Assembly: GCA_914767715.1 (NCBI GenBank) | Contig: OU612072.1 | Coordinates: 6,634,001-6,698,000, forward strand | From: Membranipora membranacea | Taxonomy: Eukaryota > Bryozoa > Gymnolaemata > Cheilostomatida > Membraniporidae | DNA length: 64,000 nucleotides | Direction: 5' to 3' | Shown: piece after piece, positions 23,237 to 62,878 of the stretch | Layout: every line of letters starts with the position of its first letter | Position numbering within the stretch: position 1 is the stretch's first letter | The notes under the pieces: generated by a model | The model's input: only the letters and a program-made list of their open reading frames with translations | The model's database searches: none | Told to the model about the DNA's origin: nothing | Made by a program: the position numbers and the translations under genes

Positions 23237-24334
23237 GTGTAAGCAGAGACTATAGATATAGAGACCTTCCACTTGCGCATAAAATGCGAATAGCCAATCA
23301 GCGTTATTTAACAGTCACGCCCACTTCTGGTTGTATAGTAAGCGCTGCTGCCTTAGACAGCAATGGCTTTCTCAATAAAATTTCAGGTTTTTCACCTGAG
23401 TTATTTGAGGCAAAATAACCACAATCTTGATGACAAAACCAGATCAGACAGCAACAAAGTCACTATCAAATGTAAAGAATTTACTGCATTGAGAGATAGA
23501 AGACCTCCCTCTCTGCCTCAAAGTTATTGTGGGATGGTTGGGGCTATGGAAAGCTTATTTTTACAAATCGCCTTGAAAACTTGTTTGGGCTTCAAAGACA
23601 TATTCAGAGCAGTTCAAAGCGCATATCTTCAGGCAACAATCAGCAGTATGCTGACTTAAAACGGGAAAACTTAGACTTTTTGAGGATGATACTTTTCTCA
23701 GACCTATGCTATAGAAAGTTTCTGTGCTGACCTAACTGATATACAAATCGCCTTGAAAACTTGTTTGGGCTTCAAAGACATATTCAGAGCAGTTCAAAGC
23801 GCATATCTTCAGGCAACAATCAGCAGTATGCTGACTTAAAACGGGAAAACTTAGACTTTTTGAGGATGATACTTTTCTCAGACCTATGCTATAGAAAGTT
23901 TCTGTGCTGACCTAACTGATGAATTCAATTCAGTCACCGGAACTGGAGAATATAACATCAGTGCTTGTTCACATTTAACTATTTTCACATTGAATATTCA
24001 ATTTTCTATACATATGGGGGCTACATTACCAAAAGGTCATCCACCAAGTATTTTGTTTCCTTGATGCCTATATTTCATATAAAAGTCGCACATCTTAGAT
24101 TTCATTTGTCCCAGTTGATATTATTGAGAGTTTTGTGTGAATGTACATATAAAATAAACAGCTAAATCATTCACCTTGTCAATTTTTGATAGTAAATTCA
24201 TAGCAATGGGTACGCTTACCTCCGAGCAATTACCACCAGAAAGGGGCGGAGCCTAATTTTCAATGTGTTCGCATCGGTTATATACGTTATCATGGCAAGT
24301 GGAAGGTCTCTATATCTATAGTCTCTGGTGTAAG
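23237..24334. mobile_element. 1.08-kb TIR DNA element, 7-bp target duplication GTGTAAG
   Basis: The element is 23244-24327. Its 32-bp perfect terminal repeats begin CAGAGACTATAGATATAGAG and end in the inverse CTCTATATCTATAGTCTCTG. GTGTAAG flanks both sides (23237-23243 and 24328-24334). The left inverted-duplication arm lacks it, giving a natural empty site near 8790. The interior holds no recognised transposase. Superfamily is uncertain: 7-bp duplications occur in P-like and Dada-like elements, among others. Confidence 0.85.
23561..23920. repeat. Exact-looking 180-bp tandem duplication inside the TIR element
   Basis: The unit 23561-23740 is repeated at 23741-23920 with no difference I can see, from ACAAATCGCCTTG through GCTGACCTAACTGAT. 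The lack of divergence implies a very recent duplication, or an assembly artefact. Confidence 0.9.
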
Positions 24335-29773: not shown

Positions 29774-29997
29774 CTTTGATAATAAATATGCTGGTACTGG
29801 TACTAAACTTTAATAATTAATATGCTTGTACTAAACTGTTGATGACCTGGAACGAATGTGGACCTATCAGAAACAAATTGTCAAATTCATCAACCCTGTT
29901 GTGAGTAGTAATTACCTCACCCAAGGAAAAAACTGAGGTAAGAAGTCTTCGCGGGGATAGACTCATTCCGATATTGGTAGGTTACAAAAAGTCTATA
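29774..29997 (-). promoter_or_regulatory. 5' flank of gene B with ETS-like site
   Basis: This lies immediately upstream of gene B's ATG. On the plus strand ACCGGAAATG at about 29998 fits an ETS-family core, next to the CCAAT repeats that follow. No TATA box is obvious. Promoter function is inferred from position and motifs only. Confidence 0.4.
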
Positions 29998-30120
29998 ACC
30001 GGAAATGAAAATGACCAAACCAATCAGACACCTACATGAAAATGACCTAACCAATCAGACACCTACATGAAAATGACCCAACCAATCAGACACCTACATG
30101 AAAATGACCGAACCAATCCA
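29998..30120. repeat. 31-bp minisatellite carrying four CCAAT motifs
   Basis: The unit CATGAAAATGACCYAACCAATCAGACACCTA (31 bp, described by its key parts ATGAAAATGACC and CCAATCAG) repeats about 3.7 times with CCAATC at a strict 31-bp spacing. It lies about 230-350 bp upstream of gene B's start codon. CCAATCAG is the NF-Y consensus, and 31 bp is close to three helical turns. Confidence 0.8.
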
Positions 30121-30405
30121 AGGTGTTACTGTATTTTATTTAAATATTGTCATAGTTAAAGGTAAAGTGAGGAATATTTACTCAACCTTTGCAGGCTGTC
30201 TGGGGTGGTGTGACATACCACCTACACAAGAGATCAAGCCTAGGCTAGTTACGCACATGTATCAGTTTCACTTTGGTAACATTGCTATTATGTTGACTCT
30301 TGTATTATCTCTTGTATATCTCTTGATCAATGAACTTCTTCATTAGGAATACAACAAAGTTGTATTTCTTTTGTTTTGGTTGGATTTATTATTATTATTA
30401 TTATT

Positions 30406-31424
30406 AGGAATACAACAAAGTTGTATTTCTTTTGTTTTAGTTGAGTTTATTATTATTATTATTATTATTATTCGTCTCGCAACACTTTTTGTCGCTTCTA
30501 TAAGTCAAGTACTACCGGGCAGAATTTGCTGTTACTTGGTCACAACATAGCTCCATATGTTTAGATGAGAAATTGCGAAATGAAATTTTAAAATGTTATG
30601 TAATACTTGCTAATTACACTAATTAGTGAAGGAGGAATTGCCTTTTTTAACGTTTTTACCCAATTTCATTCTGTTATATGTCAAGAACTACTTGGCAGAA
30701 TTCGATGATATATGGTCACAACATAGTCCCTTATGTCAAGATGAGAAATTGCAAAACGAAATTTTGAAATGTTATGTAATATTTTCTAATTACACTAATT
30801 AGTGGAGGATGTTTTTTCGATTTTCTTTTGGTGATATCTTGAGAACAAATCATGCGATTGAGTTGAAACTTAGGATACATAGGTTATGGCATATACCGAA
30901 TCTTATGACATCGTCAATTTTAATGTCACATGATCCGATATACAAAATGGCCGCCATAAACAGGAAGTGGCTGCCGATTAACAGTTCTTATCATGCGATT
31001 GAGTTAAAACTTGGGATATGGGGGTTATGACATATACCGAATCTTATGCCATCATCAATTTTAATGTCACATGATCCGATATACAAAATGGCCGCCATAA
31101 ACAGGAAGTGGCTGCCGATTAACAGTTCTTATCATGCGATTGAGATAAAACTTGGGATATGGGGGTAATGACATTTACCGGATCTTATGACATCATCAAT
31201 TCTTATGTCACATGACCCGATATACAAAATGGCCGCCATAAACAGGAAGTGGCTGCCGATTAACAGTTCTTAACATGCGATTGAGTTAAAACTTGGGATT
31301 TGGGGGTTATGACATATACCGAATCTTATGACATCATCGATTTTAATGTCACATGACCTCGATATTCAAATCTATTGGTTGTATTCCTTTATATTTGCTT
31401 GCAAATATGTTTACCGTTTCTAGT
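30406..31424 (+). mobile_element. HINE-like copy 1 (uninterrupted)
   Basis: The head is at 30406, the body (GCAACAC) at 30479, and the CTAGT end at 31424. It contains about three 141-bp units. The head directly follows the (TTA)n of another head at 30345, so it is inserted inside that outer copy. Confidence 0.75.
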
Positions 31425-31528
31425 TATTAGGAATACAACAAAGTTGTATTCCTTTTGTTTTAGTAGGGTTTATTATTATTAGTCATACAACTTTAAGTTG
31501 TATGACTTTTGTTTTAGTTGAGTTTATT

Positions 31529-32543
31529 AGGAATACAACAAAGTTGTATTTCTTTTGTTTTGGTTGGATTTATTATTATTATTATTATTATTATTTTTGC
31601 AACACTTTTGTCGCATCTATAAGTCAAGAACTACCCGGCAGAATTGGATGGAACTTTGTCATAAGATAGTTCCATATGTCTAGATGAGAAATTACTAAAT
31701 GAGTTTTTCAATCGTTATGTAATACTTGCTAATTACACTAATTAGTGAAGGAGGTTTTGCCATTTTTAACGTTTTTACCCAATTTCATTCTGCTATATGT
31801 CAAGAACTACTTGGCAGAATTCGATGATATATGGTCACAACATAGTCCCATATGTCAAGATGATAAATTGCAAAACAAAATTTTGAAATGTTATGTAATG
31901 TTTGCTAATTACACTAATTAGTGGAGGATGTTTTTTCGATTTTCTTTTGGTGATATCTTGAGAACAAATCATGCGATTGAGTTGAAACTTAGGACACAGA
32001 GGTTATGGCATATACCGAATCTTTTGACATCGTCAATTTTAATCTCACATGACCCGATAGCCAAAATGGCCGCCAAAAACAGGAAATGGCTGCCGATTAA
32101 CAGTTCTTAACATGCGATTGAGTTAATACTTGGGATTTGGGGGTTTTGACTTATACCGAATTTTATGACAACATCAATTTTTATGTCACATGACCCGATA
32201 TACAAAATGGCCGCCATAAACAGTGAACTGCTGCCGATTAACAGTTCTTATCATGCTTTTGAGTTTAAACTTGGGATTTGGGGGTTTTGACCTATACCGA
32301 ATCTTATGACATCATCAATTTCAATGTCACATGACCTGATATCCAAAATAGCCGCCATAAACAGGAAGTGGCTGCCGATTAACAGTTCTTATCATGCGAT
32401 TGAGTTAAAACTTGGGATTTAGGGGTTATGACATATACCGAATCTTATGACATCATCAATTATGATGTCACATGACCTCGATATTCAAATCTATTGGTTG
32501 TATTCCTTTATATTTGCTTGCAAATATGTTTACCGTTTCTAGT
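31529..32543 (+). mobile_element. HINE-like copy 2 (uninterrupted)
   Basis: The head is at 31529, body at 31599 and CTAGT end at 32543. Two other heads, at 31429 and 31481, precede it without bodies of their own. The body start (ACTTTTGTCGCATCTATAAG) is the same variant as the body at 43548. Confidence 0.75.
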
Positions 32544-32544
32544 T

Positions 32545-33559
32545 AGGAATACAACAAAGTTGTATTCCTCTTGTTTTAGTAGGGTTTATTATTTTTATTA
32601 TTGCAACACTTTTTAGCCTTCTATAAGTCAAGAACTACCAGGCAGAATTGGATGTTACTTGGTCACAACATAGTTGCATATGTCTAGATGAGAAATTACT
32701 AAATGAGTTTTTGAATTGTTATGTAACACTCGCTAATTAGACTAATTAGTGAAGGAGGTTTTGCTGTTTTTTTCAATCATACCTTGATTATACCAAAATG
32801 AAGTCTTCTATAACTCAAGAACTACTTGGCAGATTCTAATGATACTTGGTCACAACATAGTCCTATAGGTCAAGATGAGAAAATGCTTGGACAATTTTTG
32901 AATTGTTATGCAATTTATTTGCTAATTACACTAATTAGTGGAAGATGTTTTTCGTTTTTCTTTTGGTGATATCTTTAAAACAAATAATGCGACTGAGTTG
33001 AAACTTGGGATATGGGGGTTTTGACTTATACCGAATCTTATGAAATCATCAATTTTCATGTCACATGACCCGATATACAAAATGGCCGCCATAAACAGTG
33101 AATTGGTGCCGATTAACAGTTCTTATCATGCGATTGAGTTGAAACTTGGGATATGGGGGTTTTGACTTATACCGAATCTTATGACATCATCAATTTTCAT
33201 GTCACATGACCCGATATCCAATATGGCCACCATAAACAGGAAGTGGCTGCCGATTAACAATTCTTGTCATGCGATTGAGTTAAAACTTTGGATATGGGGG
33301 TTTTGGCATATTCCGAATCTTATGACATCATCATTTTTAATAACACATGACCCGAAATCCAATATGGCCGCAATAGAGAGTTAATTGCTGCCGATTAGTA
33401 GTTCTCATCATGCGATTGAGTTGAGACTTAAGATAAGGGGGTTTCGGCATATACCGAGTCTTATGACATCATCAATTATGATGTCACATGACCTCGATAA
33501 TCAAATCTATTGGTTGTATTCCTTTATATTTGCTTGCAAATATGTTTACCGTTTCTAGT
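32545..33559 (+). mobile_element. HINE-like copy 3 (uninterrupted)
   Basis: The head is at 32545, body at 32603 and CTAGT end at 33559. It is nearly identical over its whole length to the copy at 34873-35887, including the unusual TGCTGTTTTTTTCAATCATA segment, so one is a very recent copy of the other. Confidence 0.78.
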
Positions 33560-33658
33560 TAGGAATACAACAAAGTTGTATTTCTTTTGTTTTGGTTGGA
33601 TTTATTAGGAATACAACAAAGTTGTATTTCTTTTGTTTTAGTAGGGTTTATTATTATT

Positions 33659-34871
33659 AGGAATACAACAAAGTTGTATTCCTCTTGTTTTAGTAGGGTT
33701 TATTATTATTATTGCAACACTTTTTGAGCTTCTATAAGTCAAGAACTACCAAGCAGAATTTGATGGAACTTTGTCATAATATAGTTCCATATGTCTAGCT
33801 AAGAAATTACTAAATGAATTTTTGAATTGTTATGTAATATTCGCTAATTAGACTAATTAGTGGAGGACGTTTTGACCTTTATATTGATCATATCTTGAGA
33901 ACGAATCATGCGATTGAGTTAAAACTTGGGATATGGGGGTTATGACATATACCGAATCTTATGACATAATCAATTTTTATGTCACATGACCCGATATACA
34001 AAATGGCCGCCATTAACAGTTAACTGCTGCCAATTAACAGTTCTTATCATGCGATTGAGTTAAAACTCGGGATTTGGGGGTTTTGACCTATACCGAATTT
34101 TATCACATCATCAATTTCAATTTCACATGACCCGATATCCAAAATGGCCGCCATAAACAGGAAGTGGCTGGCGATAAACAGTTCTTAACATGCGATTGAG
34201 TTAAAACTTGGGATGTGGGGGTTATGACATATACCGAATCTTATGACATCATCAATTTTTATGTCACATGACCCGATATCCAAAATGGCCGCCATAAACA
34301 GTATATTGCTGCCAATTAGCAGTTCTTATAATGTGATTGAGTTAAAACTTGGGATATAGGGGCAATGACACATACCGAATCTTATGACATCATCATTTTT
34401 GATGTCATGTGACCCGAATCCAATATGGCCACCATTTACAGGAAGTTCTTATCATGCGATTGAGTTAAAACTTGGGATTTGGGGGTTTTGACCTATACCG
34501 AATCTTATGACATCATCAATTTCAATGTCACATGACCCGATATCCAAAATGGCCGCCATAAACAGGAAGAGGCTGCCGATTAACAGTTCTTATCATGCGA
34601 TTGAGTTAAAACATATGACATATACCGAATCTTATGACATCATCGATTTTGATGTCACGTGACCCGAAATCCAATATGGCCGCCATAGAGAGTTAATTGC
34701 TGCCGATTAGCTGTTCTCATCATGCGATTGAGTTGAGACTTAGGATAAGGGGGTTTCGGCATATACCGAGTCTTATGACATCATCAATTATGATGTCACA
34801 TGACCTCGATATTCAAATATATTGGTTGTATTCCTTTATATTTGCTTGCAAATATGTTTACCGTTTCTAGT
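33659..34871 (+). mobile_element. HINE-like copy 4 (uninterrupted)
   Basis: The head is at 33659, body at 33714 and CTAGT end at 34871. Two extra heads (33561 and 33607) stand in front of it. Confidence 0.75.
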
Positions 34872-34872
34872 T

Positions 34873-35887
34873 AGGAATACAACAAAGTTGTATTCCTCTT
34901 GTTTTAGTAGGGTTTATTATTTTTATTATTGCAACACTTTTTAGCCTTCTATAAGTCAAGAACTACCAGGCAGAATTGGATGTTACTTGGTCACAACATA
35001 GTTGCATATGTCTAGATGAGAAATTACTAAATGAGTTTTTGAATTGTTATGTAACACTCGCTAATTAGACTAATTAGTGAAGGAGGTTTTGCTGTTTTTT
35101 TCAATCATACCTTGATTATACCAAAATGAAGTCTTCTATAACTCAAGAACTACTTGGCAGATTCTAATGATACTTGGTCACAACATAGTCCTATAGGTCA
35201 AGATGAGAAAATGCTTGGACAATTTTTGAATTGTTATGCAATTTATTTGCTAATTACACTAATTAGTGGAAGATGTTTTTCGTTTTTCTTTTGGTGATAT
35301 CTTTAAAACAAATCATGCGACTGAGTTGAAACTTGGGATATGGGGGTTTTGACTTATACCGAATCTTATGAAATCATCAATTTTCATGTCACATGACCTG
35401 ATATACAAAATGGCCGCCATAAACAGTGAATTGGTGCCGATTAACAGTTCTTATCATGCGATTGAGTTGAAACTTGGGATATGGGGGTTTTGACTTATAC
35501 CGAATCTTATGACATCATCAATTTTCATGTCACATGACCCGATATCCAATATGGCCACCATAAACAGGAAGTGGCTGCCGATTAACAATTCTTGTCATGC
35601 GATTGAGTTAAAACTTTGGATATGGGGGTTTTGGCATATTCCGAATCCTATGACATCATCATTTTTAATAACACATGACCCGAAATCCAATATGGCCGCC
35701 ATAGAGAGTTAATTGCTGTTGATTAACAGTTCTCATCATGCGATTGAGTTGAGACTTGAGATAAGGGGGTTTTGGCATATACCGAGTCTTATGACATCAT
35801 CAATTATGATGTCACATGACCTCGATAATCAAATCTATTGGTTGTATTCCTTTATATTTGCTTGCAAATATGTTTACCGTTTCTAGT
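34873..35887 (+). mobile_element. HINE-like copy 5 (uninterrupted)
   Basis: The head is at 34873, body at 34931 and CTAGT end at 35887. It is the close twin of 32545-33559. It is followed by TTTTATTATTATT and a headless body at 35913-36820, as expected if this copy had landed in the (TTA)n of that outer copy. Confidence 0.78.
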
Positions 35888-36913
35888 TTTTATTATTATT
35901 ATTATTATTATTGCAACACTTTTTGGGCCTCTATAAGTCAAGAACCACCAGGCAGAATCCGATGCAACTTCGTCACAACATAGTTCCATATGTCTAGATG
36001 AGAAATTACTTAATGAGTTTTTGAATTGTTATGTAACACTCGCTAATTAGACTAATTAGTGAAGGAGGTTTTGACGTTTATATTGATGATATCTCGAGAA
36101 CAAATCGTGCGATTGAGTTAAAACTTGGGGTATTGGGGTTATGACACATACCGAATCTTATGACATCATCAACTTTTATGTCACATGACCCGATATACAA
36201 AATGGCCGCCATAAACAGTAAACTGCTGCCAATTAACAGTTCTTATCATGCGATTGAGTTAAAACTTGGGATATGGGGGTTTTGACCTATACCGAATCCT
36301 ATCACATCATCAATTTCAATCTCACATGACCCGATATCCAAAATGGCCGCCATAAACAGGAAGTGGCTGGCGATTAACAGTTCTTAACATGCGATTGAGT
36401 TAAAACTTGGGATTTGGGGGTTTTGACCTATACCGAATCTTATGACATCATCAATTTCAATGTCATATGACCCGATATCCAAAATGGCCGCCATAAACAG
36501 GAAGTGGCTGCCGATTAACAGTTTTTATCACGCGATTGAGTTAAAACTTGGGATTTGGGGGTTAAGACATATACCGAATCTTATGACATCATCGATTTTG
36601 ATGTCACATGACCCGAAATCCAATATGGCCGCCATAGAGAGTTAATTGCTGCCGATTAGCAGTTCCGATCATGCGATTGAGTTGAGACTTAAGATAAGGG
36701 GGTTTCGGCATATACCGAGTCTTATGACATCATCAATTATGATGTCACATGACCTCGATATTCAAATATATTGGTTGTATTCCTTTGTATTTGCTTGCAA
36801 ATATGTTTACCGTTTCTAGTTAGGAATACAACAAAGTTGTATTCCTTTTGTTTTAGTAGGGTTTATTAGGAATACAACAAAGTTGTATTTCTTTTGTTTT
36901 AGTAGGGTTTATT

Positions 36914-38302
36914 AGGAATACAACAAAGTTGTATTTCTTTTGTTTTAGTAGGGTTTATTATTATTATTATTATTGCAACACTTTTTGAGCTTCTATAAGT
37001 CAAGAACTACCAGAGGCAATTTGATGAAACTTGTTTACAACATACCTTCATGTGTCTAGATGAAAAATTTCAATTTGAATTTTTGAAAGGTTATGTAATA
37101 TTAGCTAATTACACTAATTAATGGAGGGCGTTTTGACCTTTATATTGATCATATCTTGAGAACGAATCATGCGATTGAGTTAAAACTTTGGATATGGGGG
37201 TTATGACATGTACCGAATCTTATAACATCATCAATTTTTATGTCACATGACCCGATATACAAAATGGCCGCCATAAACAGTAAACTGCTGCCAATTAACA
37301 GTTCTTATCATGCGATTGAGTTAAAACTTGGGATTTGGGGGTTTTGACCTATACCGAATCTTATGACATCATCAATTTCAATGTCACATGACCCGATATC
37401 CAAAATGGCCGCCATAAACAGGAAGTGGCTGCCGATTAACAGTTCTTATCATGCGATTGAGTTAAAACTTGGGATTTGGGGGTTATAACATATACCGAAT
37501 CTTATGACATCATCGATTTTGATGTCACATGACCCGAAATCCAATATGGCCGCCATAAAGAGTTAGTTGCTACCGGTTAGCAGTTCTCATCATGCGATTG
37601 AGTTGAGACTTAAGATAAGGGGGTTTCGGCATTTACCGAGTCTTATGACATCATCAATTATGATGTCACATGACCAGATATACAAAATGGCCGCCATAAA
37701 CAGTAAACTGCTGCTAATTAACAGTTCTTATCACGCGATTGAGTTAAAACTTGGGATACAGGGGTTATGACATTTACCGAATCTTATGACATCATCAATT
37801 TTAATGTCACATGACCGGAAATCCAAAATGGCCGCCAAAGACAGCAAACTGCTGCCGATTAACAGTCCTCATCATGCGATTGAGTTAAATCTCAGACTAT
37901 GGGGGTTTTGACTTATACCGAATCCAGTGACATCATCAATTTTGATGTCACATGACCCGGAATCCAAAATGGCCGCCATAGACAGCAAACTGCTGCCGAT
38001 TAACAGTCCTCATGTGATTGAGTTAAATCTCAGACTATGGGGGTTTTGACTTATACCGAATCTTATGACATCATCGATTTTGATGTCACATGACCCGAAA
38101 TCCAATATGGCCGCCATAGAGAGTTAATTGCTGCCGATTAGCAGTTCTCATCATGCGATTGAGTTGAGACTTGGGATAAGGGGGTTTCGGCATATACCGA
38201 GTCTTATGACATCATCAATTATGATGTCACATGACCTCGATATTCAAATACATTGGTTGTATTCCTTTATATTTGCTTGCAAATATGTTTACCGTTTCTA
38301 GT
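36914..38302 (+). mobile_element. HINE-like copy 6 (uninterrupted)
   Basis: The head is at 36914, body at 36975 and CTAGT end at 38302. It has the longest satellite run among the uninterrupted copies. It is preceded by heads at 36822 and 36868 at exact 46-bp spacing, and followed by headless bodies at 38319-39096 and 39110-39876. Confidence 0.75.
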
Positions 38303-39974
38303 TATTATTATTTTTCTTGCAACACTTTTATAGCCTCTTTTTAGCCTTTTATAAGTCAAGAACTGCCTGGCACAATTTGATGAAACTTGGTGACAACATA
38401 GCTTCACATGTTTAGATGAAAAATTTCTATTCCAATTTTTGAAGTATTATGTAATATTAGCTAATTAGACTAATTAACCACCGAAGGTCCGAATATGTAA
38501 AATGATGATATCTTGAGAACGAATCATGTTAGAACCAGGTAAACTGGCATATGGGGGTTTGTTAGTATGCCCGATCGCATAGTGACATCAAATATTGTGT
38601 CACATGACCTTGAGATTCAAAATGGCCGCCATGAACAGTAAGTGGCTGCCGATTAACAGTTCTTATCATGCGATTGAGTTAACACTTGGGATTTGGGGGT
38701 TATGACACATACCGAATCTTATGACATCATCAATTATAATGTCACATGACCCGATATCCAAAATGGCTGCCATAAACAGGAAGTGGCTGCCGATTTACAG
38801 TTCTTACCATGCGATTGGGCTAAAACTTGGGATTTGGGGGTTTTGACAGATGCCAAATCTGATGACATCATCGATTATAATGTCACATGACCCGATATCC
38901 AAAATGGCTGCCATAAACAGGAAGTAGCTGCCGATTTACAGTTCTTACCATGCGATTGGGTTAAAACTTGGGATTTTGGGGTTTTGACATATGCCGAATC
39001 TGATGACATCATCGATCTTGATGTCACATGCCCTTGACAATCAATACTTTCGGTTGTATGACTTCATATTTGCTTGCAAATATTACCGTTTCTAGTTTTT
39101 ATTATTATTGCAACACTTTTTAGCCTTCTATAAGTCAAGAACCACCAGGCAGAATTCGATGCAACTTCGTCACAACATAGTTCCATATGTGTAGATGAGA
39201 AATTACTAAACGAGTTTTTGAATTGTTATGTAACACTCGCTAATTAGACTAATTAGTGAAGGAGGTTTTGACGTTTATATTGATGATATCTTGAGAACAA
39301 ATCATGCGATTGAGTTAAAACTTGGGATATGGGGGTTTTGACATATACCGAATCTAATGACATCATTGCCTATGATGTCACATGACCCGAAATACAAAAT
39401 GGCCGCCATATACTGTAAATTGCAGCTAACTAACAGTTCTTATGATGCGATTAAGTTAAAACTTGGGATATAGGGGTAATGACATATACCGAATCTTATG
39501 ACATCATCAATTTTTATGTCACATGACCCGATATACAAAATGGCCGCCATAAACAGGAAGTGGCTGCCGATTAACAGTTCTTAACATGCGATTGAGTTAA
39601 AACTTGGGATTTGGGGGTTATGACATATACCGAATCTTATGACATCATCGATTTTGATGTCACATGACCCGAAATCCAATATGGCCCCCATAGAGAGTTA
39701 ATTGCTGCCGATTAGCAGTTCTCATCATGCGATTGAGTTGAGACTTAAGATAAGGGGGTTTCGGCATATACTGAGTCTTATGACATCATCAATTATGATG
39801 TCACATGACCTCGATATTCAAATACATTGGTTGTATTCCTTTATATTTGCTTGCAAATATGTTTACCGTTTCTAGTTAGGAATACAACAAAGTTGTATTC
39901 CTTTTACTTTAGTAGGGTTTATTAGTCATACAACTTTAAGTTGTATGACTTTTGTTTTAGTTGAGTTTATTATT

Positions 39975-40951
39975 AGTCATACAACTTTAAGTTGTATGAC
40001 TTTTGTTTTAGTTGAGTTTATTATTATTATTATTTTTCTTGCAACACTTTTTTAGCCTTTTATAAGTCAAGAACTGCCTGGCACAATTTGATGAAACTTG
40101 GTGACAACATAGCTTCATATGTTTAGATGAAAAATTTCAATTTCAATTTTTGACATATTATGTAATATTAGCTAATTAGACTAATTAACCACCGAGGGTC
40201 CGAATATGTAAAATGGAGATATCTTGAGAACGAATCATGTTAGAACCAGGTAAACTGGCACATGGGGGTTTGTTAGTATGCCCGATCGCATAGTGACATC
40301 GAATATTGTGTCACATGACCTTGACATTAATAATGGCCGCCATGAACAGGAAGTTGCTGCCGATTAACAGTTCTTAACATACGATTGAGTTAAAACTTGG
40401 GATTAAGGGGTTATGACATATACTGAATCTTATGACATCATCAATTTTAATGTCACATGACCCGATATCCAAAATGGCTGCCATAAACAGGAAGTGGCTG
40501 CCGATATACATTTCTTACCATGCGATTGGGTTGAAACTTAGGATATTGGGGTTATGGCATATACCGAATCTTATGACATCGTCAATTTTAATGTCACATG
40601 ACCCGATATCCAAAATGGCCGCCAAAAACAGGAAGTGACTGCCGATTAACAGTTCTTATCATGCGATTGAGTTAAAACTTGGGATTTGGGGGTTTTGACT
40701 TATACCGAATCTTATGACATCATCAATTTTCATGTCGCATGACCCGATATACAAAATGGCCGCCATAAAGAGTGAATTGCTGCCAATTGACAGATCTTAT
40801 CATGCGATTGAGTTGAAACTTGGGATATGGGGGTTTTGACATACACCGAATCTTATGACATCATTAATTTTCATGTCACATGACCTTGAAAACCAATGTG
40901 GTCGGTTGTATGACTTCATATTTGCTCGCAAATATTATTACCGTTTCTAGT
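39975..40951 (+). mobile_element. HINE-like copy 7, GTCATAC subfamily (uninterrupted)
   Basis: The head variant AGTCATACAAC at 39975 pairs with a tail variant GGTTGTATGAC ending in CTAGT at 40951. The body (40041) has its own type, CTTGCAACACTTTTTTAGCC then AACTGCCTGG. The headless bodies after it, 40971-42163 and 42177-43525, fit as the outer partners of the heads at 39924 and 39878. Confidence 0.78.
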
Positions 40952-43900
40952 TATTATTATTATTTTTCTTGCAACACTTTTTTAGCCTTTTATAAGTCAA
41001 GAACTGCCTGGCACAATTTGATGAAACTTGGTGACAACATAGCTTCATATGTTTAGATGAAAAATTTCAATTTCAATTTTTGACATATTATGTAATATTA
41101 GCTAATTAGACTAATTAACCACCGAGGGTCCGAATATGTAAAATGGAGATATCTTGAGAACGAATCATGTTAGAACCAGGTAAACTGGCGCATAGGGGTT
41201 TGTTAGTATGCCCGATCGCATAGTGACATCGAATATTGTGTCACATGACCTTGACATTAATAATGGCCGCCATGAACAGGAAGTGGCTGCCGATTAAAAG
41301 TTCTTAACATACGATTGAGTTAAAACTTGGGATTTGGGGGTTATGACATATACTGAATCTTATGACATCATCAATTTTAATGTCACATGACCCGATATCC
41401 AAAATGGCTGCCATAAACAGGAAGTGGCTGCTGATATACAGTTCTTACCATGCGATTGGGTTGAAACTTAGGATATTGGGGTTATGGCATATACCGAATC
41501 TTATGACATCGTCAATTTTAATGTCACATGACCCGATAGCCAAAATGGCCGCCAAAAACAGGAAGTGGCTGCCGATTAACAGTTCTTATCATGCGATTGA
41601 GTTAAAACTTGGGATTTGGGGGTTTTGACTTATACCGAATCTTATGACATCATCAACTTCAGTGTCACATGACCCGATATCCAAAATGGCCGCCATAAAC
41701 AGGAAGTGGCTGCCGATGAACAGTTCTTAACATGCAATTGAGTTAAAACCTGGGATTTGGGGGTTTTGACTTATACCGAATCTTATGACATCATCAATTT
41801 TCATGTCGCATGACCCGATATACAAAATGGCCGCCATAAAGAGTGAATTGCTGCCAATTAACAGTTCTTATCATGCGATTAAGTTAAAACTTGGGATTTG
41901 GGGGTTATGACATATACCGAATCTTATGACATCATCGATTTTGATGTCACATGACCCGAAATCCAATATGGCCGCCATAGAGAGTTAATTGCTGCCGATT
42001 AGCTGTTCTCATCATGCGATTGAGTTGAGACTTGGGATAAGGGGGTGTCGGCATATACCGAGTCTTATGACATCATTAATTTTCATGTCACATGACCTTG
42101 AAAACCAATGTGGTTGGTTGTATGACTTCATATTTGCTCGCAAATATTATTACCGTTTCTAGTTATTATTATTCTTGCAACACTTTTTAGCCTTCTATAA
42201 GTCAAGAACCACCAGGCAGAATTCGATGCAACTTCGTCACAACATAGTTCCATATGTCTAGATGAGAAATTACTAAATGAGTTTTTGAATTGTTATGTAA
42301 CACTCGCTAATGAGCCTAATTAGTGGAGGACGTTTTGACCTTTATATTGATCATATCTTGAGAACGAATCATGCAATTTAGTTAAAACTTGGGATATGGG
42401 GGTTATGACATGTACCGAATCTAATGCCATCATCAATTTTTATGTCACATGACCCGATATACAAAATGGCCGCCATAAACAGGAAGTGGCTGCCGATTAA
42501 CAGTTCTTATCATGCGATTGAGTTAAAACTTGGGATATAGGGGTAATGACATATACCGAATCTTATGACATCATCAATTTTAATGTCACATGACCCGATA
42601 TACAAAATGGCCGCCATAAACAGTAAACTGCTGCCAATTAACATTTCTTACCATGCGATTGAGTTAAAACTTGGGATTTGGGGGTTTTGACCTATACCGA
42701 ATATTATCACATCATCAATTTCAATTTCACATGACCCGATATCCAAAATGGCCGCCATAAACAGGAAGTGGCTGGCGATAAACAGTTTTTAACATACGAT
42801 TGAGTTAAAACTTGGGATTTGGGGGTTTTGGCATATACCGAATCTTATGACATCATCAATTTCAATGTCACATGACCCGATATACAAAATGGCCGCCATA
42901 AACAGGAAGTGGCTGCCGATTAACAGTTCTTATCATGCGATTGAGTTAAAACTTGGGATTTGGGGGTTATGACATATACCGAATGTTATGACATCATCAA
43001 TTTTGATGTCACATGACCCGAAATCCAATATGGCCGCCATAGACAGTTAATAGCTGCCGATTAACAGTTCTTATCATGCGATTGAGTTAAAACTTGGGAT
43101 TTGGGGGTTATGACATACACCGAATCTTATGACATCATCAATTTTTATGTCACATGACCCGATATCCAAAATGGCCGCCATAAAAAGGAAGTAGCTGCCG
43201 AATAACAGTTCTTATCATGCGATTGAGTTAAAACTTGGGATATTGGGGTTATGACATATACCGAATCTTATGACATTATCAATTTTCATGTCACTTGACC
43301 CGATATCCAAAATGGCCGCCATAAACAGGAAGTGGCTGCCGACTAACAGTTCTTATCATGCGATTGAGTTAAAACTTGGGATATGGGGGTTTTGGCATAT
43401 ACCGAATCCTTTGAGACCAACAATTATGATGTCACGTGACCTCGATATTGGATATTATTGGTTGTATTCCTTCATATTTGCTTGCAAATATTATTTTGTT
43501 GATTAAAAAAATTACCGTTTCTAGTTATTATTATTATTATTATTTTTGCAACACTTTTGTCGCATCTATAAGTCAAGAACGATCAGGCAGAATTGGATGG
43601 AACTTTGTCATAAGATAGTTCCATATGTCTAGATGAGAAATTACTAAATGAGTTTTTGAATCGTTATGTAATACTTGCTAATTACACTAATTAGTGAAGG
43701 AGGTTTTGCCTTTTTTAACGTTTTTACCCAATTTCATTCTGCTATATGTCAAGAACTACTTGGCAGAATTCGATGATATATGGTCACAACATAGTCCCAT
43801 ATGTCAAGATGAGAAATTGCAAAACAAAATTTTGAAATAGTATGTAATATTTGCTAATTACACTAATTAGTGGAGGATGTTTTTTCGATTTTCTTTTGGT

Positions 43901-44633
43901 GATATCTTGAGAACAAATCATGCGATTGAGTTGAAACTTGGGATACAGAGGTTATGGCATATACCAAATCTTATGACATCGTCAATTTTAATGTCACATG
44001 ACCCGATATCCAAAATGGCCGCCAAAAATAGAAAATGGCTGCCGATTAACAGTTTTTATCATGCGATTGAGTTGAAACTTAGGATACAGAGGTTATGGCA
44101 TATACCAAATCTTATGACATCGTCAATTTTAATGTCACATGACCCGATATCCAATATGGCCGCCATAATCAGGAAGTGGCTGCCGATTAACAGTTCTTAT
44201 CATGCGATTGAGTTAAAATTTGGGATTTGGGGGTTATGACATATACCGAATCTTTTGACATCATCAATTTCAATGTTACATGACCCGATATTCAAAATTG
44301 CCGCCATAAACAGGAAGTGGCTGCCGATTAACAGTTCTTATCATGCGATTGAGTTAAAACTTGGGATTTGGGGGTTATGACATATACCGAATCTTATGAC
44401 ATCATCGATTTTGATGTCACATGACCCGAAATCCAATATGGCAGCCAGAGAGAGTTAATTGCTGCCGATTAGCAGTTCTCATCATGCGATCGAGTTGAGA
44501 CTTCGGATAAGGGGGTTTCGGCATATACCGAGTCTTATGACGTCATCAATTATGATGTCACATGACCTCGATATTCAAATATATTGGTTGTATTCCTTTA
44601 TATTTGCTTGCAAATATGTTTACCGTTTCTAGT

Positions 44634-46868
44634 TGATTTTATAGTGGACATGCAGTATTGTTTGTTATGATAAAGTATCATAGTAAGGGTACACCACACA
44701 TTTTGCTGTCTATAACCTGTCTATAACATACATGACAAGTTGGTAGACCCAGAAATCAGGAGGTCTTCACGGACAAAGTCCCGACCCGGAGTACCACCCT
44801 GCACGTCCCGCAGTGAAGGTGTAATCTGGCCCTTGTTGTCATTTACTTTAGGCCAACACTAGAGCGTTCATATTATAAATTATATTGTTGCACTGTATCC
44901 GAACGAGGAGAGATAGTATGTTAATAGGCAATTATATATAGTTATATGTACTGTGGGGGTAGGAAAACATAGTTTTTCTTGCAACGAGAAGCTTAAAAAG
45001 TCTTCTGGGTGAAGGAAGCTGAGAAAAGGGAGGAAAAAGGGAGATAGGGAGGAGGTGGAAAATACCCCTAAAAACTGGGAGGCTCCCTACCAAAAAGGGA
45101 GACTTGTCGGGTATGGTCTATAACATAGCAGCAGTGTGTATTTTGGAATCTTAAATATTTTCAGAAGTCAAAACAAAACCCTAAATTCCTTTTTATGATT
45201 ATTCATAATTCCCTAAACACATCAAGTTCAACATTAGCATTGAGTAGCGTATATACTTTTTCTAAGTGTGTTTATTGCAGGTGCAATTACTGGGGCAAGG
45301 CTATCCGATTGCTGTCATATCTTTGACAGTCATGGCACCAGAGATACCAGAGCCTCTGGCGCGGCACCTCGATACCAAACATTTGCAATATCCTTCCGCC
45401 ACCACAGAGGGAACAAACTTGTTCTACATTAGGACTGAGTCATGAATATAGCTCAGTATTAAAACATATAAATTAAATCCTAATAAAATTAACAACCTCA
45501 AGAAATTCCAATGGATGGAAGTTTTGGGAAACCCAACACCGTAAGTTTTTGGTGTTACTATTCAATGCACATCCATATTGATACAGGCCCAGTACACAGT
45601 GAAATCGTAAGTTGGATTGTTGCACCTCAACAATGATGTGAAAATTTGCAGGCACATTTAAATCTTTACATCACAAGATATCAAAATATAGGAGGACAAC
45701 TCGAAGTCTAAACCTGACAAAAAAACATTGTCCATGATTTCAGTTGTCCCATTACAGGTTCGGAATCATGAAACTATGGAGAAATATAGAAAGCTGCCAT
45801 GTGAATCATGCAGAGTTGACTGATATGTCATGTGCTGAGATCTCCAACTTTTGACTACCTAGCATATTTAGGTCTGTATAAACTCAGATACACTGAGAAA
45901 GGGAGCAATGGCAAGTAGTAAAACGAAAGAAGATCTTAGTCTAATCAATATGAAATATTTTTTATTCTTTTGTCAACTGGATGGTCAAATTGTGTTTTGA
46001 TTGTCCATAAAAAAAGCTGCAAACAGTATACTGAACTGTGACAAAATGGGGGTAATAAATAACTCAGTTGGTCAGAGTCAGGGAGAATGGCAGGGGTTGA
46101 GTTGATTCTCCCTTCCGTTCTCCCTGGTTGAGTTGAGGCCTCATGTGATAAAATAACAATAATATAATAAATTTGAGAATACATATCATCACTTCTAATC
46201 TAAAAGAAAAACAAAAATAATGCAAAATTTATCTTGTGGACGGAATAAATAAACAAATAAATTATATTTTTATTTTCAGCTGATCCAGGAGCTGTGGCTA
46301 TAAAGAAAATTGACACATCTTATCTCCCATAGAATTATATTCATTGATGAGTAGAATAACAACATGAAGCTGTTAAGGTGTTGAAAAAATATCCCTCATG
46401 AGCAATAATTTGGTGACCGACTAATTCTAACTCATTTATAACCATCAAACATCTGCCATTGTCTGCTTAGATCGAGTTTGATCTAGTTTGTCTGTCTTTG
46501 GAGTTGCTCTCCGCCAACGGATGAAAGGCAAAAAATTGAAGGAAACTGATTGAATGACCCCTTGATATTAAAAAAACGCTTATTAGAGTGCCTCAAATTG
46601 GAGATATGCATTAAACCACACTGTTGACATAGTTGTTGCCTAACTTCAAACCGGAACTAAGAGAAGAAAAAGTATGAGCAGAAAGAATACAATCAAACAG
46701 TATCTTGATATCGTGAACAGTAAAATGACATAATAATGCCGTTCACAACCAACTTTTATAGAGTTAAGTAAAAATGCTATAAAATATATCACAGGTCGCA
46801 CAAATGAACCATTGTTGCTTACATAATGTGCTTCTACGCTGTATGGCACAGGTAAGTTACGTATATCA
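44634..46868. other. Spacer between the HINE nest and gene C, with one possible orphan exon
   Basis: At 45281-45443 a good acceptor (TTTATTGCAG) is followed by 54 open codons ending in TGA (LLGQGYPIAVISLTVMAPEIPEPL). Another frame reads CHIFDSHGTRDTRASGAAPRY before a stop. It could be the last exon or remnant of an unknown gene, but no partner exon is seen. The rest (44640-45250 and 45450-46860) is AT-rich without recognised features. Confidence 0.3.
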
Positions 46869-56764: not shown

Positions 56765-56893
56765 TTAAGCTACTGCTGCCGGGCAGGGACATGGGAAGAA
56801 AAGTCTCATGATCTTTGCAAGAGCTATGGTTATGACACTGTACAACATTGTGAGGCAAAGAGTTTTGAATGAAACACAATTTTTAAGACCTAC

Positions 56894-57442
56894 CTGCCAC
56901 TTCTGGGCATACTGTCCCATCTCTTCAGCCAGTTTAATGCTCCCGGAACGGTTCAGATGAACTCCATCCATCGCGAATTCACAGCGACTGTAAGTAAAAC
57001 GCTCATGATGACCTAAAACAGAAAAATATGAGTGATTCAGCAAAGAGTTTAATGTAAAAACATCATGGTTAAACCTAGCCAACCTAGCAGGAGAAAGTGT
57101 GTACCAGCAGTCAGGCAAGCTACTGTCCCAGCGCCTGAACAACTCGCTAACACACAGATGTACTCCAGGTGGCATGGAATCATTTAGAGCACACAACCAG
57201 TCGTAAAGTTCCAGAACTGATGCACCTTTGCTAGCCAGGTCATTTGTTCCAACATGCACTAAAACAAGTTTATGCCTGAGTTTTAAGTTCTCCAACACCC
57301 ACTCAGCTACACTTCCTACCCCCCTTCCAGGCAAGGAAACAACCTCCAAATCACACCTAACATCTCCAACATACTTGACCAAAGAATCCCCTACAACAAG
57401 AACAGCAGACTCGCTGCCGCTATAAACAGGCCCTCTTACCAT
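56894..57442 (-). CDS. SGNH/GDSL-type hydrolase exon, copy 1
   Basis: The exon runs from ATG 57442 to a donor (GGCAG then GTAGGT) at 56894: 549 bp, 183 codons, phase 0. The reading frame stays open to 56765 if unspliced. Motifs: VVGDSLVKY (nucleophile Ser20), LPGRGVGS, HVGTNDLA (Asn), and MDGVHLNRSGS (Asp-x2-His), the four SGNH blocks. Family members are esterases or lipases, but this subgroup is common in repeat-rich animal loci and its substrate is unknown. Upstream sequence to about 57500 (ACTACTGAGTAAAACTCGAT) is conserved with the copy at 62878. Downstream exons for this copy were not found. Confidence 0.75.
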
Positions 57443-58252
57443 CTTGATGAACAGCCTGTAGTAAAAACTACTGAGTAAAACTCGATTACTATTCACAATA
57501 AATGGAAGGTGACAAGTTATAGAATACATAATTGGTTAACCAAGCACTTAAGCACACATGTGCATCCAGGTAGGGTAGGGTAGGGGATCAAAATTCATTC
57601 ATTATACCGCGTTGAAGCTAACACGACCGATGATAATTAGCACACCCCCTCTGAAATTATTGCTCAGGCTCAGGTTCACAGCAGGCTCAGCACTGAGCGG
57701 GTCAGATGAAGTACTTCATTGCAAACATTCTATGGGTAGTAGTAAAACGCTATTGATGGCCTAGAGCAGAAGGATCAGAGTGATTCCACAAACAGTTTAA
57801 TGTAAAAAATACCGTAAGTGAGTATTATTGGCATTTTACTTGGGTATGTAACACCACATCTTGTGAAAGTGACCAAAACAAGGTAGTTACATCCCCGCGC
57901 AAAGAACCCCGTTCTTTACTTTTGCATTCGTTGTGACCTGCAGAGGTAAGGACCTCTCCCAGTGGTCGAGGCTAGGACTCTCACGTGAATGCTGAGCGAA
58001 GTTAAGCTATATGGAGACGCGTTCATCGCTCATGACCACCAAAAATGGTTACCAAAAAGGCATAGCCTTGATGGAGTTATCTAAAATAGATAGAAAAAAT
58101 TAGCAAAGATGAAACAGTTGGGCTCCTGACAAGCCAGTACCAAATTTAGAAAGATGTAAGATCCATCTCCAAAAAGGAAACCCACACTACCCTTGCAAAT
58201 AACTATGAAAACTATGATAACTTATGAAAACTGGAATACTAAATAATATGAG
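57443..58252. other. Duplicated flanking sequence between SGNH copy 1 and the Ulp1 gene
   Basis: 57826-57900 (ATTGGCATTTTACTTGGG to GTAGTTACATCCC) is repeated in the same orientation at 63425-63500. About 57660-57790 resembles decayed SGNH sequence. No intact gene is present. Confidence 0.5.
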
Positions 58253-59047
58253 TTACTTTTGTTCACAACTTGCGCAAAGATACAAAGCATATTCTTCAGT
58301 CCAAACTATATCAGGTATTGAAACACATGAATCATGGAGATAAATGTTACACTTATTACATTCAACCATTCTCATAGACATACTTTTATCAAGTTTAGCA
58401 AGTTTACAATGGCAAAATATGTCAACATAATATGGCTGACATCTAACAGATTTATATTGCCTAGCACGTTTTGGTTCGTAAGGGAAGACTTCTATTTTTT
58501 TTGTACAGATTATTTTCATGAAATGCTCCCTAAGTTTTGTTTGATTATAGTTGGCATTCACAGGATTTTGACTTAAAATCAAGGACGTGGCATATGCACA
58601 GGCAAATAGGCCGCAATCGTCTGACCTTTGCTGTTGTGTTACTCTCATGTTCACCATATTAAAACCAAGACCAGGCCTTCTTACAAATGAGGAAACAAGG
58701 GTTTGCAATTGGGGTGGAAACTTACGAGACATTTTTGAATCATAAACACACACTTCATTATCATCAGCACTAAATACGTTACTTACAGTTATCCAATGGT
58801 TTTTATTGACATTCAATATTTGGACAAACTTTTTAGTGCACGTACCACCAATCGGATATTCCCATGTCATTTGGGCTACATCTTGAAACCCATCTAAATC
58901 ATCAAAGAGAGATCTTGTACGATGTTCTGATAAAAGATACGCAAAATCTGTAAGTATCGATTTATATTGGTATCTGATTGGACATTCAGGCATGACAGTT
59001 GGCGCTTTCATCTTTTGGTTAACATGGATTTGCCTTGCAGTCTCCAA
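58253..59047 (-). CDS. Ulp1-like (C48) cysteine protease with C-terminal PHD finger, transposon-derived
   Basis: An open frame of 264 codons ends at 58253. It has no ATG at its upstream edge and overlaps the end of the MULE fragment in another frame, so it probably continues from it through a frameshift or unseen intron. Catalytic residues of a C48 peptidase are visible: NHW (His84), VYDSK (Asp103), Gln near 139-140, and DDCGLFACAYA (Cys145). Residues 212-261 form a PHD-type finger (C-x-C, C-x2-C, H-x2-C, C-x2-C). Ulp1-like proteases accompany many MULE transposons; their role there is not settled. Host SUMO proteases usually lack this PHD. Confidence 0.75.
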   Translation of the reverse strand: METARQIHVNQKMKAPTVMPECPIRYQYKSILTDFAYLLSEHRTRSLFDDLDGFQDVAQMTWEYPIGGTCTKKFVQILNVNKNHWITVSNVFSADDNEVCVYDSKMSRKFPPQLQTLVSSFVRRPGLGFNMVNMRVTQQQRSDDCGLFACAYATSLILSQNPVNANYNQTKLREHFMKIICTKKIEVFPYEPKRARQYKSVRCQPYYVDIFCHCKLAKLDKSMSMRMVECNKCNIYLHDSCVSIPDIVWTEEYALYLCASCEQK

Positions 59048-62400: not shown

Positions 62401-62878
62401 ATCCATCTCTTCCAAACAGACGTCTGTCACTACTAAAGTGGGAGCGATGATCTAGAACAGAAATGTTAGAGCACGAGAGCAATCTGTTTAACTCTGTCAC
62501 GTTTCTATTGAACCTAACTAACTGAGCAGCAGAGAGTGAGTACCAACAGTTAGAAAACAAGTTCTCCCACCTCCTAAACAACATACTAATGCAGAGCTGG
62601 GTCCCTGCAGGCATAAGAGCATTTAGAGCGCATAACTTGTTGTAGAGTGCATAAACTGAGACCCCTTTTGCTAGGTCGTTAGTTCCTACATGCACAACAA
62701 CCAATTTGTGACGCGCCTCTACGTGCTCCTCTACCCACTGAAACACCGAGTCCACACCTTTCCCAGGCAGGGAGACAACCTCAAGATCACACCTAACATC
62801 GCCCACATACTTAACTAATGAATCCCCAACAACGAGCACTGCAGACTCACTGCCACTAAAAACAGGTCCTCTCGCCAT
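59458..62878 (-). CDS. SGNH hydrolase spliced to a MULE transposase N-terminus (composite transposon gene)
   Basis: Minus-strand exons are 62333-62878, 61405-61593, 60778-60903, 60462-60557, 60144-60242 and 59458-59880 (TGA). All are flanked by AG and GT, and every length is a multiple of three, so the frame is kept: 493 codons. Exon 1 is an SGNH domain (Ser20 in GDSL, GTND, DGLHLN with Asp158 and His161). Exons 2-5 encode Ser/Pro-rich linkers (LPVTVS, PPLGIPPPRPH). Exon 6 starts ATG CCT and carries the MULE/FAR1-like zinc cluster (YSCQFG, CPFVLRLGYDKKKNIYVV, HNH). The last exon may also start translation itself. Fusion of an esterase-like domain to a MULE is inferred from phases; no transcript evidence is available. 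Confidence 0.65.

Follow-up and report, generated by a model that had tools for sequence, protein, structure and literature searches.

In the 64-kb window of Membranipora membranacea DNA (the whole stretch analysed, 64,000 nucleotides), an array of 14,290 bp (30344-44633) carries 16 heads and 13 body-tails, all on one strand. How did such an array arise, and can the order of its assembly be read? The array is very probably a self-nested stack of HINEs (non-autonomous Helentrons), built as new copies inserted into older ones. Split elements keep matching halves, and the order of insertion in the nests can therefore largely be read.

Composition of the Array

Motif search of the window located the 16 heads, which have the form TAGGAATACAAC or TAGTCATACAAC, from 30344 to 39985. 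The 13 tails (TTACCGTTTCTAGT) end at the right-hand limits of the tail-bearing units in Table 1, from 31424 to 44633. All 13 bodies begin with GCAACACTTTT. Three heads are of the GTCATAC type (31480, 39923 and 39974) and three tails of the GTATGAC type (ending at 39096, 40951 and 42163), the same numbers as in the initial annotation. A head adjoins a body in seven cases; nine heads and six body-tails are separated, a surplus of exactly three heads. Outside the array, no head or tail with companion motifs was found in the 64 kb, the looser matches there being without them. Minus-strand matches to the motifs are the palindromic arms of the same plus-strand heads and tails.

Table 1. Units of the array and its flanks, in window positions
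Feature	Position	Strand	Basis or remark
Left flank, dispersed host repeat (founder target)	29967..30343	+	six listed paralogues reach 30343
Head H1, haplotype G (GGTTGGATTTA), and left part of its own TTA tract; founder head, partner body 43548-44633	30344..30404	+	rejoining, empty site
Complete element H2-T1, class S	30405..31424	+	99.1% to C6-array copy
Head H3, haplotype Y4; predicted partner body 39110-39876	31428..31479	+	pairing
Head H4, GTCATAC type; predicted partner body 38319-39096	31480..31527	+	pairing
Complete element H5-T2, class G	31528..32543	+	
Complete element H6-T3, class Y	32544..33559	+	99.0% identity to H10-T5, 0 gaps
Head H7, haplotype G; orphan in best pairing	33560..33605	+	
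Head H8, haplotype Y2; predicted partner body 35913-36820	33606..33657	+	weakest of six rejoinings (91.7%)
Complete element H9-T4, class Y	33658..34871	+	
Complete element H10-T5, class Y	34872..35887	+	
Residual TTA tract and headless body-tail T6, class Y	35888..36820	+	
Heads H11 (Y4) and H12 (Y2), 46-bp period; orphans in best pairing	36821..36912	+	
Complete element H13-T7, class Y	36913..38302	+	
Residual tract and body-tail T8, GTATGAC type	38303..39096	+	
Residual tract and body-tail T9, class Y	39097..39876	+	
Head H14, haplotype Y3 (TTTTAC); partner body 42177-43525	39877..39922	+	
Head H15, GTCATAC type; partner body 40971-42163	39923..39973	+	rejoined match to intact C4 element
Complete element H16-T10, GTCATAC/GTATGAC type; innermost of local three-deep nest	39974..40951	+	
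Residual tract and body-tail T11, GTATGAC type	40952..42163	+	
Residual tract and body-tail T12; tail is the longer TTATTTTGTTGATTAAAAAAATTACC form of the autonomous element	42164..43525	+	
Residual tract and body-tail T13, class G; other end of founder	43526..44633	+	
Right flank, same host repeat continuing	44634..44716	+	paralogues join CTTCAT to TGATTTT without array in 6/6 fetched copies

Element Identity and the Autonomous Partner

The units are classified as HINEs on the following sequence traits: i) subTIRs at both ends, where a GGAATACAAC head goes with a GTTGTATTCC tail and a GTCATAC head with a GTATGAC tail; ii) 5' inverted repeats in the heads, GGAATACAAC-aaa-GTTGTATTCC (or ...TTTC) and GTCATACAAC-ttta-GTTGTATGAC; iii) a microsatellite, the TTA tract, and central tandem repeats of 141 bp; iv) a 3' palindrome, ATATTTGCTTGCAAATAT (loop base changed in some copies), followed by TTACCGTTTCTAGT; v) insertion at T|T without target-site duplication, with TT at the ends and duplication-free empty sites; and vi) ends in common with an autonomous Helentron of the same genome. 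This autonomous element (13.9 kb, tiles L023-L025) has head haplotype Y2 and the tail of the short elements, and its outer ~1 kb and ~0.4 kb are common to many short copies. Its 2,222-aa open frame has Rep, helicase and endonuclease-like parts, and matches both PF14214 (Rep, E 1.1e-26) and PF05970 (PIF1 helicase, E 3.6e-30) in one protein. In two copies the C-terminal 263 aa align with nearly the whole Exo_endo_phos profile, at E 6.2e-4 (20.0 bits) and E 1.3e-4 (22.2 bits); both scores fall short of the curated cut-off of 24.5, and in the whole protein the match has E 0.037. No solved endonuclease structure matched at E < 0.5. The region contains TETW, MYRP, GDIN, LLD and SDH, which may represent endonuclease motifs. 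The ends, the target, the lack of target-site duplication and this partner bear out the earlier description as Helentron-like. Family membership suggests that the elements would move by rolling-circle transposition.

Founder Insertion

The initial annotation had proposed 30344 and 44633 as the outermost pair, with host DNA outside, and a search for the empty site confirmed it. In 6/6 fetched paralogues of the flanking repeat, CTTCAT runs unbroken into TGATTTT, with no gap at the joint and no duplication. The whole array is a single compound insertion, placed at a T|T within a dispersed host repeat, and the founder pair is well supported. Rejoined, the founder (H1 head, tract and T13 body) matches an intact element at 99.7% over 333 bp with 0 gaps; the alternative head at 33560 rejoins to this body almost equally (99.1%). 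The outermost head and body agree in class in 6/7 arrays (shuffle P 0.14), and as a test on its own this comparison was rejected.

Head Labels in the Pooled Arrays

Other arrays were located with a two-head query, which gave at least 19 other clusters among the matches listed; nested loci are over-represented because the query held two heads. Sequence for the counts came from 16 of the 19 clusters (several in part) and locus L041, with clusters C2:27.7, C4:34.6 and C7:10.6 Mb left out; pieces L001-L008, L029 and L030 were inspected but not counted. The enclosure counts are over 20 blocks, the window plus 19. Since heads are only 46 bp with 13 haplotypes, class and nearest-neighbour tests took the place of head trees.

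The heads fall into 13 discrete haplotypes among the 84 adjacent head-body units, and in 84/84 of these the head class is the body class and the subTIR type is the tail type. A separated head therefore carries the label of its own body. Simple enclosures have the form H[HB]B. In 27/33 of them the outer head and the outer body match (shuffled mean 8.7, SD 2.5, maximum 20 in 20,000); two of the 33 (C6 30385 and 38734) belong to one local duplication. Where outer and inner head differ in class (n=14), the outer body matches the outer head in 11 and the inner head in 1. The blocks total 167 heads and 170 bodies, of which 83 heads and 86 bodies are separated and can form at most 64 non-crossing pairs; 57 of the 64 can be class-consistent, against 47.1 +/- 2.1 after shuffling, and none of 500 shuffles reached as many. 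Haplotypes finer than class added no support to the pairing (P 0.60).

Small nests follow the same pattern: L031 reads G[S]G, L040 G[Y]G and L039 Y[S[Y]S]Y, and none of their flanks, over the 269-1000 bases examined, matched the array. In L035, which can be read as S[G[c[c]c[c]]Y]S, the last tail was not recognised. Naive nearest-bracket pairing at the first seven loci agreed in only 31/48 separated pairs; orphans are thus frequent among heads and bodies alike, and a long-range pair may be mistaken. Nearest-neighbour divergence was tried as an age clock and rejected; across the 33 enclosures the outer element was more diverged in 8, less in 20 and tied in 5, a trend in the opposite direction. 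The relative insertion order can be read from a single genome without a clock.

Pairing within the Window

There are 84 ways to pick three orphans from the nine separated heads, and 2 of them yield type-consistent non-crossing pairings. These are the two choices named in the initial annotation, 33560 or 33606 together with 36821 and 36867. The complete pairing that we consider probable leaves 33560, 36821 and 36867 as orphans. In it the founder pair 30344-44633 encloses 30405-31424, 31428-39876 and 39877-43525. The second of these encloses 31480-39096, which in turn encloses 31528-32543, 32544-33559, 33606-36820 and 36913-38302, and 33606-36820 encloses 33658-34871 and 34872-35887. The third retains the local nest with matching types that had been noted before, 39877-43525 [ 39923-42163 [ 39974-40951 ] ]. 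For 31480-39096 and 31428-39876, the two long-range pairs, this is the likeliest reading, short of proof.

The proposal that heads and tails behave as type-consistent brackets thus holds in the pooled arrays, and is weak in the window by itself: 10/36 placements of the two free rare labels also pair consistently, as do 75/756 arrangements in a three-class version, and the class-based shuffle is not significant (P = 0.089). The bracket reading is supported by the empty site and by what the genome's other arrays show, not by the window types alone.

Rejoined halves were also compared with intact elements. An intact element on C4 is 100% identical to rejoined H15-T11 (320 aligned, 0 gaps). For body 35913, orphan head 33560 (91.8%, 3 gap columns) fits as well as the predicted head, which rejoins without gaps (Table 1). 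For three of the six separated bodies (40971, 42177 and 43548), the nearest intact body has a head of the predicted partner's haplotype; for 35913, 39110 and 38319 it has another haplotype of the same class. For 38319 the nearest head is c3-like and the second nearest c2, the haplotype of the predicted partner.

A somewhat unlikely reading keeps the nesting but has unequal exchange or gene conversion between the near-identical units shuffle the window later; the two long-range pairs would then be coincidental, and the orphan heads would be what is left of deleted units. In its favour, the C6 array shows a segmental duplication, both heads and bodies are often orphaned, the window-only test is not significant, and affinity differs between unit halves (T2 and T13 are 98.1% identical in the 5' part and 87.1% in the 3' part). 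However, the founder ends are anchored by the empty site, the nest 39877-43525 needs no long reach, and all six separated pairs become type-consistent only under global pairing (the 2/84 above).

Orphan Heads and Multi-Head Runs

Runs of two to five heads occur at 50/84 complete units, and most of these runs mix haplotypes, with varying orders and spacings. Two-headed composites, in which transposition starts at an outer head and stops at the first tail so that H-H-B-T moves whole, would leave orphan heads such as the three in the window, and have been suggested in work on Fusarium Helitrons (PMC5148889). However, no combination of ordered haplotypes, spacing and body recurred at unlinked loci in the 50 multi-head runs compared, and the sole exact repeat (Y1 4 S 7 S 4 G) lies within the C6 array, as a local duplication; in addition, bodies outnumber heads in some arrays (36 to 32 in C6, 14 to 8 in one C2 block). 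Composites were therefore rejected as the main source of orphan heads, and as an explanation they are improbable.

Rolling-circle amplification of truncated templates that had lost the 3' terminator, and were inserted as concatemers, would also give runs of 5' ends with one 3' end; plant arrays of this form are described in a review (PMC12628747), and some orphan heads, for example 36821/36867, could have this origin. Concatemers are expected to be copies of one element, whereas most runs here are mixed, heads and bodies are nearly balanced, and the headless body after a run matches the outer head in the 27/33 enclosures given above, all of which makes this origin very unlikely. Tandem duplication of multi-unit blocks into a higher-order satellite, with no transposition into the tract, could account for the head-to-tail order, the 141-bp repeats and the C6 block duplication, but it is already contradicted and extremely improbable: unit order differs between arrays, the two-unit nests L031 and L040 stand alone in the flanks examined, the whole array has a clean empty site, and the complete element H9-T4 occurs in two other settings, at 100.000% over 1214 bp on C6 and at 99.9% in the C8:3.3-3.4 Mb array, where its 5' end adjoins host DNA. 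Except for the C6 duplication, no multi-unit block recurred in the same order among the arrays compared, and multi-head runs vary from array to array, in keeping with the earlier remark that this is not a simple satellite.

Relation to Known Systems

For head-to-tail arrays the usual suggestion is tandem rolling-circle replication. Xiong et al. reportedly described in 2016 truncated Helitrons amplified by rolling circle in plant centromeres (review PMC12628747). These share with the bryozoan arrays the tandem runs of 5' ends; the bryozoan heads and bodies are near balance and most runs are of mixed haplotype. The same review describes C. gigas satellite/Helitron loci that likewise have elements or parts inside other elements and tandemised parts, but as complex and shuffled, whereas the bryozoan order is bracket-like, in one orientation and largely pairable.

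HINE/DINE-1-like elements as described by Thomas et al. 2014 (PMC4067079) have subTIRs, a 5' inverted repeat, a microsatellite, central tandem repeats and a 3' palindrome, and insert at T-T with no target-site duplication, all features common to the bryozoan units. There the microsatellite is presented as part of the structure; in the bryozoan it is also where members of its own family mainly land, giving multi-level nests. Cg_HINE of Crassostrea gigas (PMC7492417) is similar in layout (subTIR, inverted repeat, microsatellite, satellite-like array, 3' subTIR and palindrome), T-rich target and empty sites, the last shown with chimeric flanks. Its microsatellite has mostly 4-base units, with 3- to 8-base units too, and the word "nested" is absent from the main text of that paper; the bryozoan tract is TTA, with nested copies whose split halves match. 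For Fusarium, self-insertion has been put forward as the source of nested Helitrons and of multiple 5' termini that share a single 3' terminus (PMC5148889). The cases described there are single ones (one nested, one element inserted 2 bp upstream of the 5' terminal part of another, and one three-copy tandem set in Metarhizium), compared with 33 simple enclosures in 20 blocks here, with pairable labels and headless bodies kept. The component parts are of known kinds; what is new is the scale, the self-landing and the readable order. Helitron self-insertion, inferred from single cases in the papers compared, could here be put to a numerical test, which it passed, on many nests of one family with both labelled halves.

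Landing Sites and Proposed Mechanism

The claim that new copies land in the (TTA)n tracts of older ones is upheld if element ends are included: of 153 in-array insertions, 151 fall either within a TTA tract or at an element junction, and residual tracts contain 4.3% of all counted TT/AA sites. A TT spans 165/167 of the 5' ends and 155/156 of the 3' ends, and no head or tail lies on the minus strand inside the arrays. Since only one strand of (TTA)n offers TT, insertions there may be confined to a single orientation, which would be a simple reason for the head-to-tail order.

Nested self-insertion very probably proceeded as follows. A G-class element, with a (TTA)n tract separating its 46-bp head from its body, entered between two T's of the dispersed host repeat. 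Later elements, which this genome's autonomous Helentron presumably mobilised in trans, entered T|T sites of the tract or the exact end of an element, splitting the older element into head and body-tail. Each newcomer carries its own tract and thereby provides a fresh landing pad; in the resulting nested brackets an outer pair must predate what lies inside. Tentatively, (TTA)n may be a self-laid, strand-asymmetric landing pad that draws kin in one orientation and away from genes, the nests growing at the expense of the split copies and the head labels recording insertion order as a stratigraphy. Such arrays may be an early stage of satellite formation from Helentrons. The tract of intact units is 11-44 bases long; the sums of rejoined tracts resemble intact tracts, but their two parts are no more than weakly anticorrelated (r = -0.24, n = 27), and tract length was rejected as a test of the pairing.

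Composition of the array

A motif search of the window (C8:6634001-6698000, in a genome of 339 Mb in 18 contigs) found 16 heads and 13 tails, all on one strand, between 30344 and 44633, and none with companion motifs in the rest of the window. Each unit runs from a 46-bp head carrying an internal inverted repeat, through a TTA tract and a body, to a 3' subterminal repeat followed by a palindrome and a terminal CTAGT; the body begins GCAACACTTTT and contains 141-bp tandem repeats. The units are HINEs (non-autonomous Helentrons), sharing the layout and target set out in PMC4067079 and PMC7492417. Seven heads adjoin a body; 9 heads and 6 body-tails stand separated, a surplus of three heads.

Copies identical or nearly identical to the HINE at 33658-34871 in different settings point to recent movement. 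The two complete units at 32544 and 34872 may be sibling insertions from one source or the product of local duplication. In the bodies at 31599 and 43548 the element parts differ in affinity, for which either recombination or template switching could account.

Features of the window and of related loci
Location	Strand	Feature	Observation or reading
23562-23920		Perfect 180-bp tandem duplication
30005-30118		31-bp tandem repeat	Within the host repeat that flanks the array on the left; 3.7 copies, 96% matches
30344 with 44633		Founder pair	Firm
39877-43525		Nest	Firm
31428-39876		Separated pair	Likeliest reading
31480-39096		Separated pair	Likeliest reading
33606-36820		Separated pair	Likeliest reading
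31599-32543; 43548-44633		Bodies	98.1% identity in 5' 260 bp, 87.1% in 3' 210 bp
32544-33559; 34872-35887		Complete units	99.0% identity, no gaps; tail directly left of each
33658-34871		Complete HINE	100.000% over 1214 bp to copy in C6 array; 99.9% to copy in C8:3.3-3.4 Mb array; settings differ
36867; 36913		Heads	Identical 46-bp units
56765-57529; 62300-62878	minus	ORFs	N-terminal parts clearly alike, SGSESAVLVVGDSLVKYVGDVRCDLEVVSLPG in both; no Pfam match at E 0.001 for the first
58253-59047	minus	264-aa ORF	Ulp1-protease (C48) match, E 9.6e-6; weak PHD-finger match below cut-off
L033:745-3906		Nest in another locus	Truncated by other DNA; lone S-class element in opposite orientation ~0.7 kb beyond, outside the nest
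C2:16130406-16144298		13.9-kb element	Carries the 2,222-aa frame antisense
L024:44-6709	minus	2,222-aa frame of the likely autonomous Helentron	Antisense to head-to-tail direction; N-terminal PF04843 match, E 4.3e-7
C2:27.68 Mb; C2:27.72 Mb; C10:19.37 Mb		Rep-domain matches	Frames of 2204, 2204 and 1892 aa; ~5 kb from same-family head matches

The founder insertion

The array is one compound insertion. Its left flank is, among the matches listed, a dispersed host repeat, of which at least six copies extend to the junction; all six continue into the right flank with no gap at the joint and no duplication. The empty site joining CTTCAT to TGATTTT, for which the initial annotation had proposed a search, is thus present in the genome, the joint reading exactly CTTCATTGATTTT in four copies and with one difference there in the other two. 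Because these copies show the empty site, the array's first head and its final body-tail are the two founder ends. Both are of class G, and the rejoined halves align without gaps to an intact element, at 99.7% identity over 333 bases.

Pairing of separated halves

Class labels were examined in 20 blocks, the window and 19 in other loci. Their 84 adjacent head-body units carry 13 head haplotypes, and head class equals body linker class, and head type tail type, in all 84. The classes were set by eye on the loci holding the first 60 units, where seven unclassed heads became haplotype Q and were then counted as class Y; the 24 units from later loci brought no exception.

Bracket pairing was tested in the pooled set. 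In simple enclosures, where one complete unit lies inside one split unit, outer head and outer body are of one class in 27 of 33 (mean after shuffling 8.7, SD 2.5; maximum 20 in 20,000 shuffles). When outer and inner heads are unlike in class (14 enclosures), the outer body matches the outer head in 11, the inner in one and neither in two. Of 64 possible pairs, the largest class-consistent non-crossing pairing recovers 57, against a mean of 47.1 (SD 2.1) after shuffling; none of 500 shuffles came as high. Pairing by nearest bracket, applied to the first seven loci, gives agreement of class in 31 of 48 separated pairs and of subterminal (subTIR) type in 45. The small nests are G[S]G (L031), G[Y]G (L040) and Y[S[Y]S]Y (L039), and their flanks, over the 269 to 1000 bases examined per side, show no match to the array. 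Other results are silent or unfavourable: finer haplotypes within a class bring no added support (observed 0.78, shuffled 0.79, P 0.60), and outermost classes agree in six of seven arrays (shuffle P 0.14). Divergence is no greater in outer than in inner elements (outer more diverged in 8, less in 20, tied in 5); nearest-neighbour distance is a poor clock, and this result gives no help to the nesting order.

In the window itself, 2 of the 84 possible three-orphan pairings are type-consistent, and these are the ones put forward in the initial annotation, but 10 of 36 label placements are also consistent, and the class-based test gives P 0.089. The nearest intact body carries the predicted partner's head haplotype for three of the six separated bodies. 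Rejoined pairs are 100, 99.7, 96.8, 95.5, 95.2 and 91.7% identical to intact elements. Of four alternative rejoinings tried, three are less identical than the pairs they compete with (99.1, 94.8 and 94.6%). The remaining one, which puts head 33560 on body 35913, is about level with its rival (91.8% with three gap columns, against 91.7% with none). On these results, the founder pair and the nest beginning at 39877 are firm, and the three other pairs are the likeliest reading.

Insertion sites and orientation

Among in-array heads, 151 of 153 are placed either within a TTA tract or at an element junction, the other two being elsewhere, a count to be read with the selection of loci, which favours nests; the residual tracts contain 4.3% of the TT/AA sites in bodies and tracts. 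Insertions in tracts that follow a head fall at the first three TT sites in 67 of 83 cases, and 34 of 65 tail-to-head junctions are gapless. No minus-strand heads or tails were found inside arrays. Of the two strands of the tract, TT is present only on the one reading TTA, so that targeting between two Ts would by itself give array insertions a single orientation.

Self-insertion and multiple 5' ends are proposed for Fusarium from few cases in PMC5148889, and truncated rolling-circle arrays for plants in a review (PMC12628747). Self-nesting through an element's own microsatellite at such scale was not found in the open literature searched, and Helitrons are unmentioned in the main text of a study of bryozoan genomes including Membranipora membranacea (PMC13326412).

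Origin of orphan heads

Orphans of both kinds are common in the pooled set (83 separated heads, 86 separated bodies, at most 64 pairs). The orphan heads would best be explained by loss of body-tails through exchange between near-identical units. At 36867, identity with the head at 36913 means that simple tandem duplication is also possible. Two-headed transposition, proposed in PMC5148889, implies that a given head run should recur at unlinked loci; among 50 multi-head runs none did so, a local duplication apart.

A likely autonomous partner

An autonomous Helentron partner is likely present in the same genome. All nine Rep-domain matches lie above the family cut-off (12 candidates scored). 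The match on contig C2 is in a single open frame of 2,222 aa, counted stop to stop, with matches to Rep, PIF1 helicase and DUF6570 and, at its C-terminus, an endonuclease-like match under the curated cut-off. The element around it begins with head haplotype Y2, ends with the tail form of the window body 42177-43525, and sits within a HINE body, whose 240-bp joined flanks are up to 99.6% identical to intact bodies without gaps. A second Rep-bearing copy, on C1, has an open frame of 2,221 aa. PF04843, matched by the N-terminal part of the 2,222-aa frame, is named for a herpesvirus tegument protein; the match may represent a protease-like domain.
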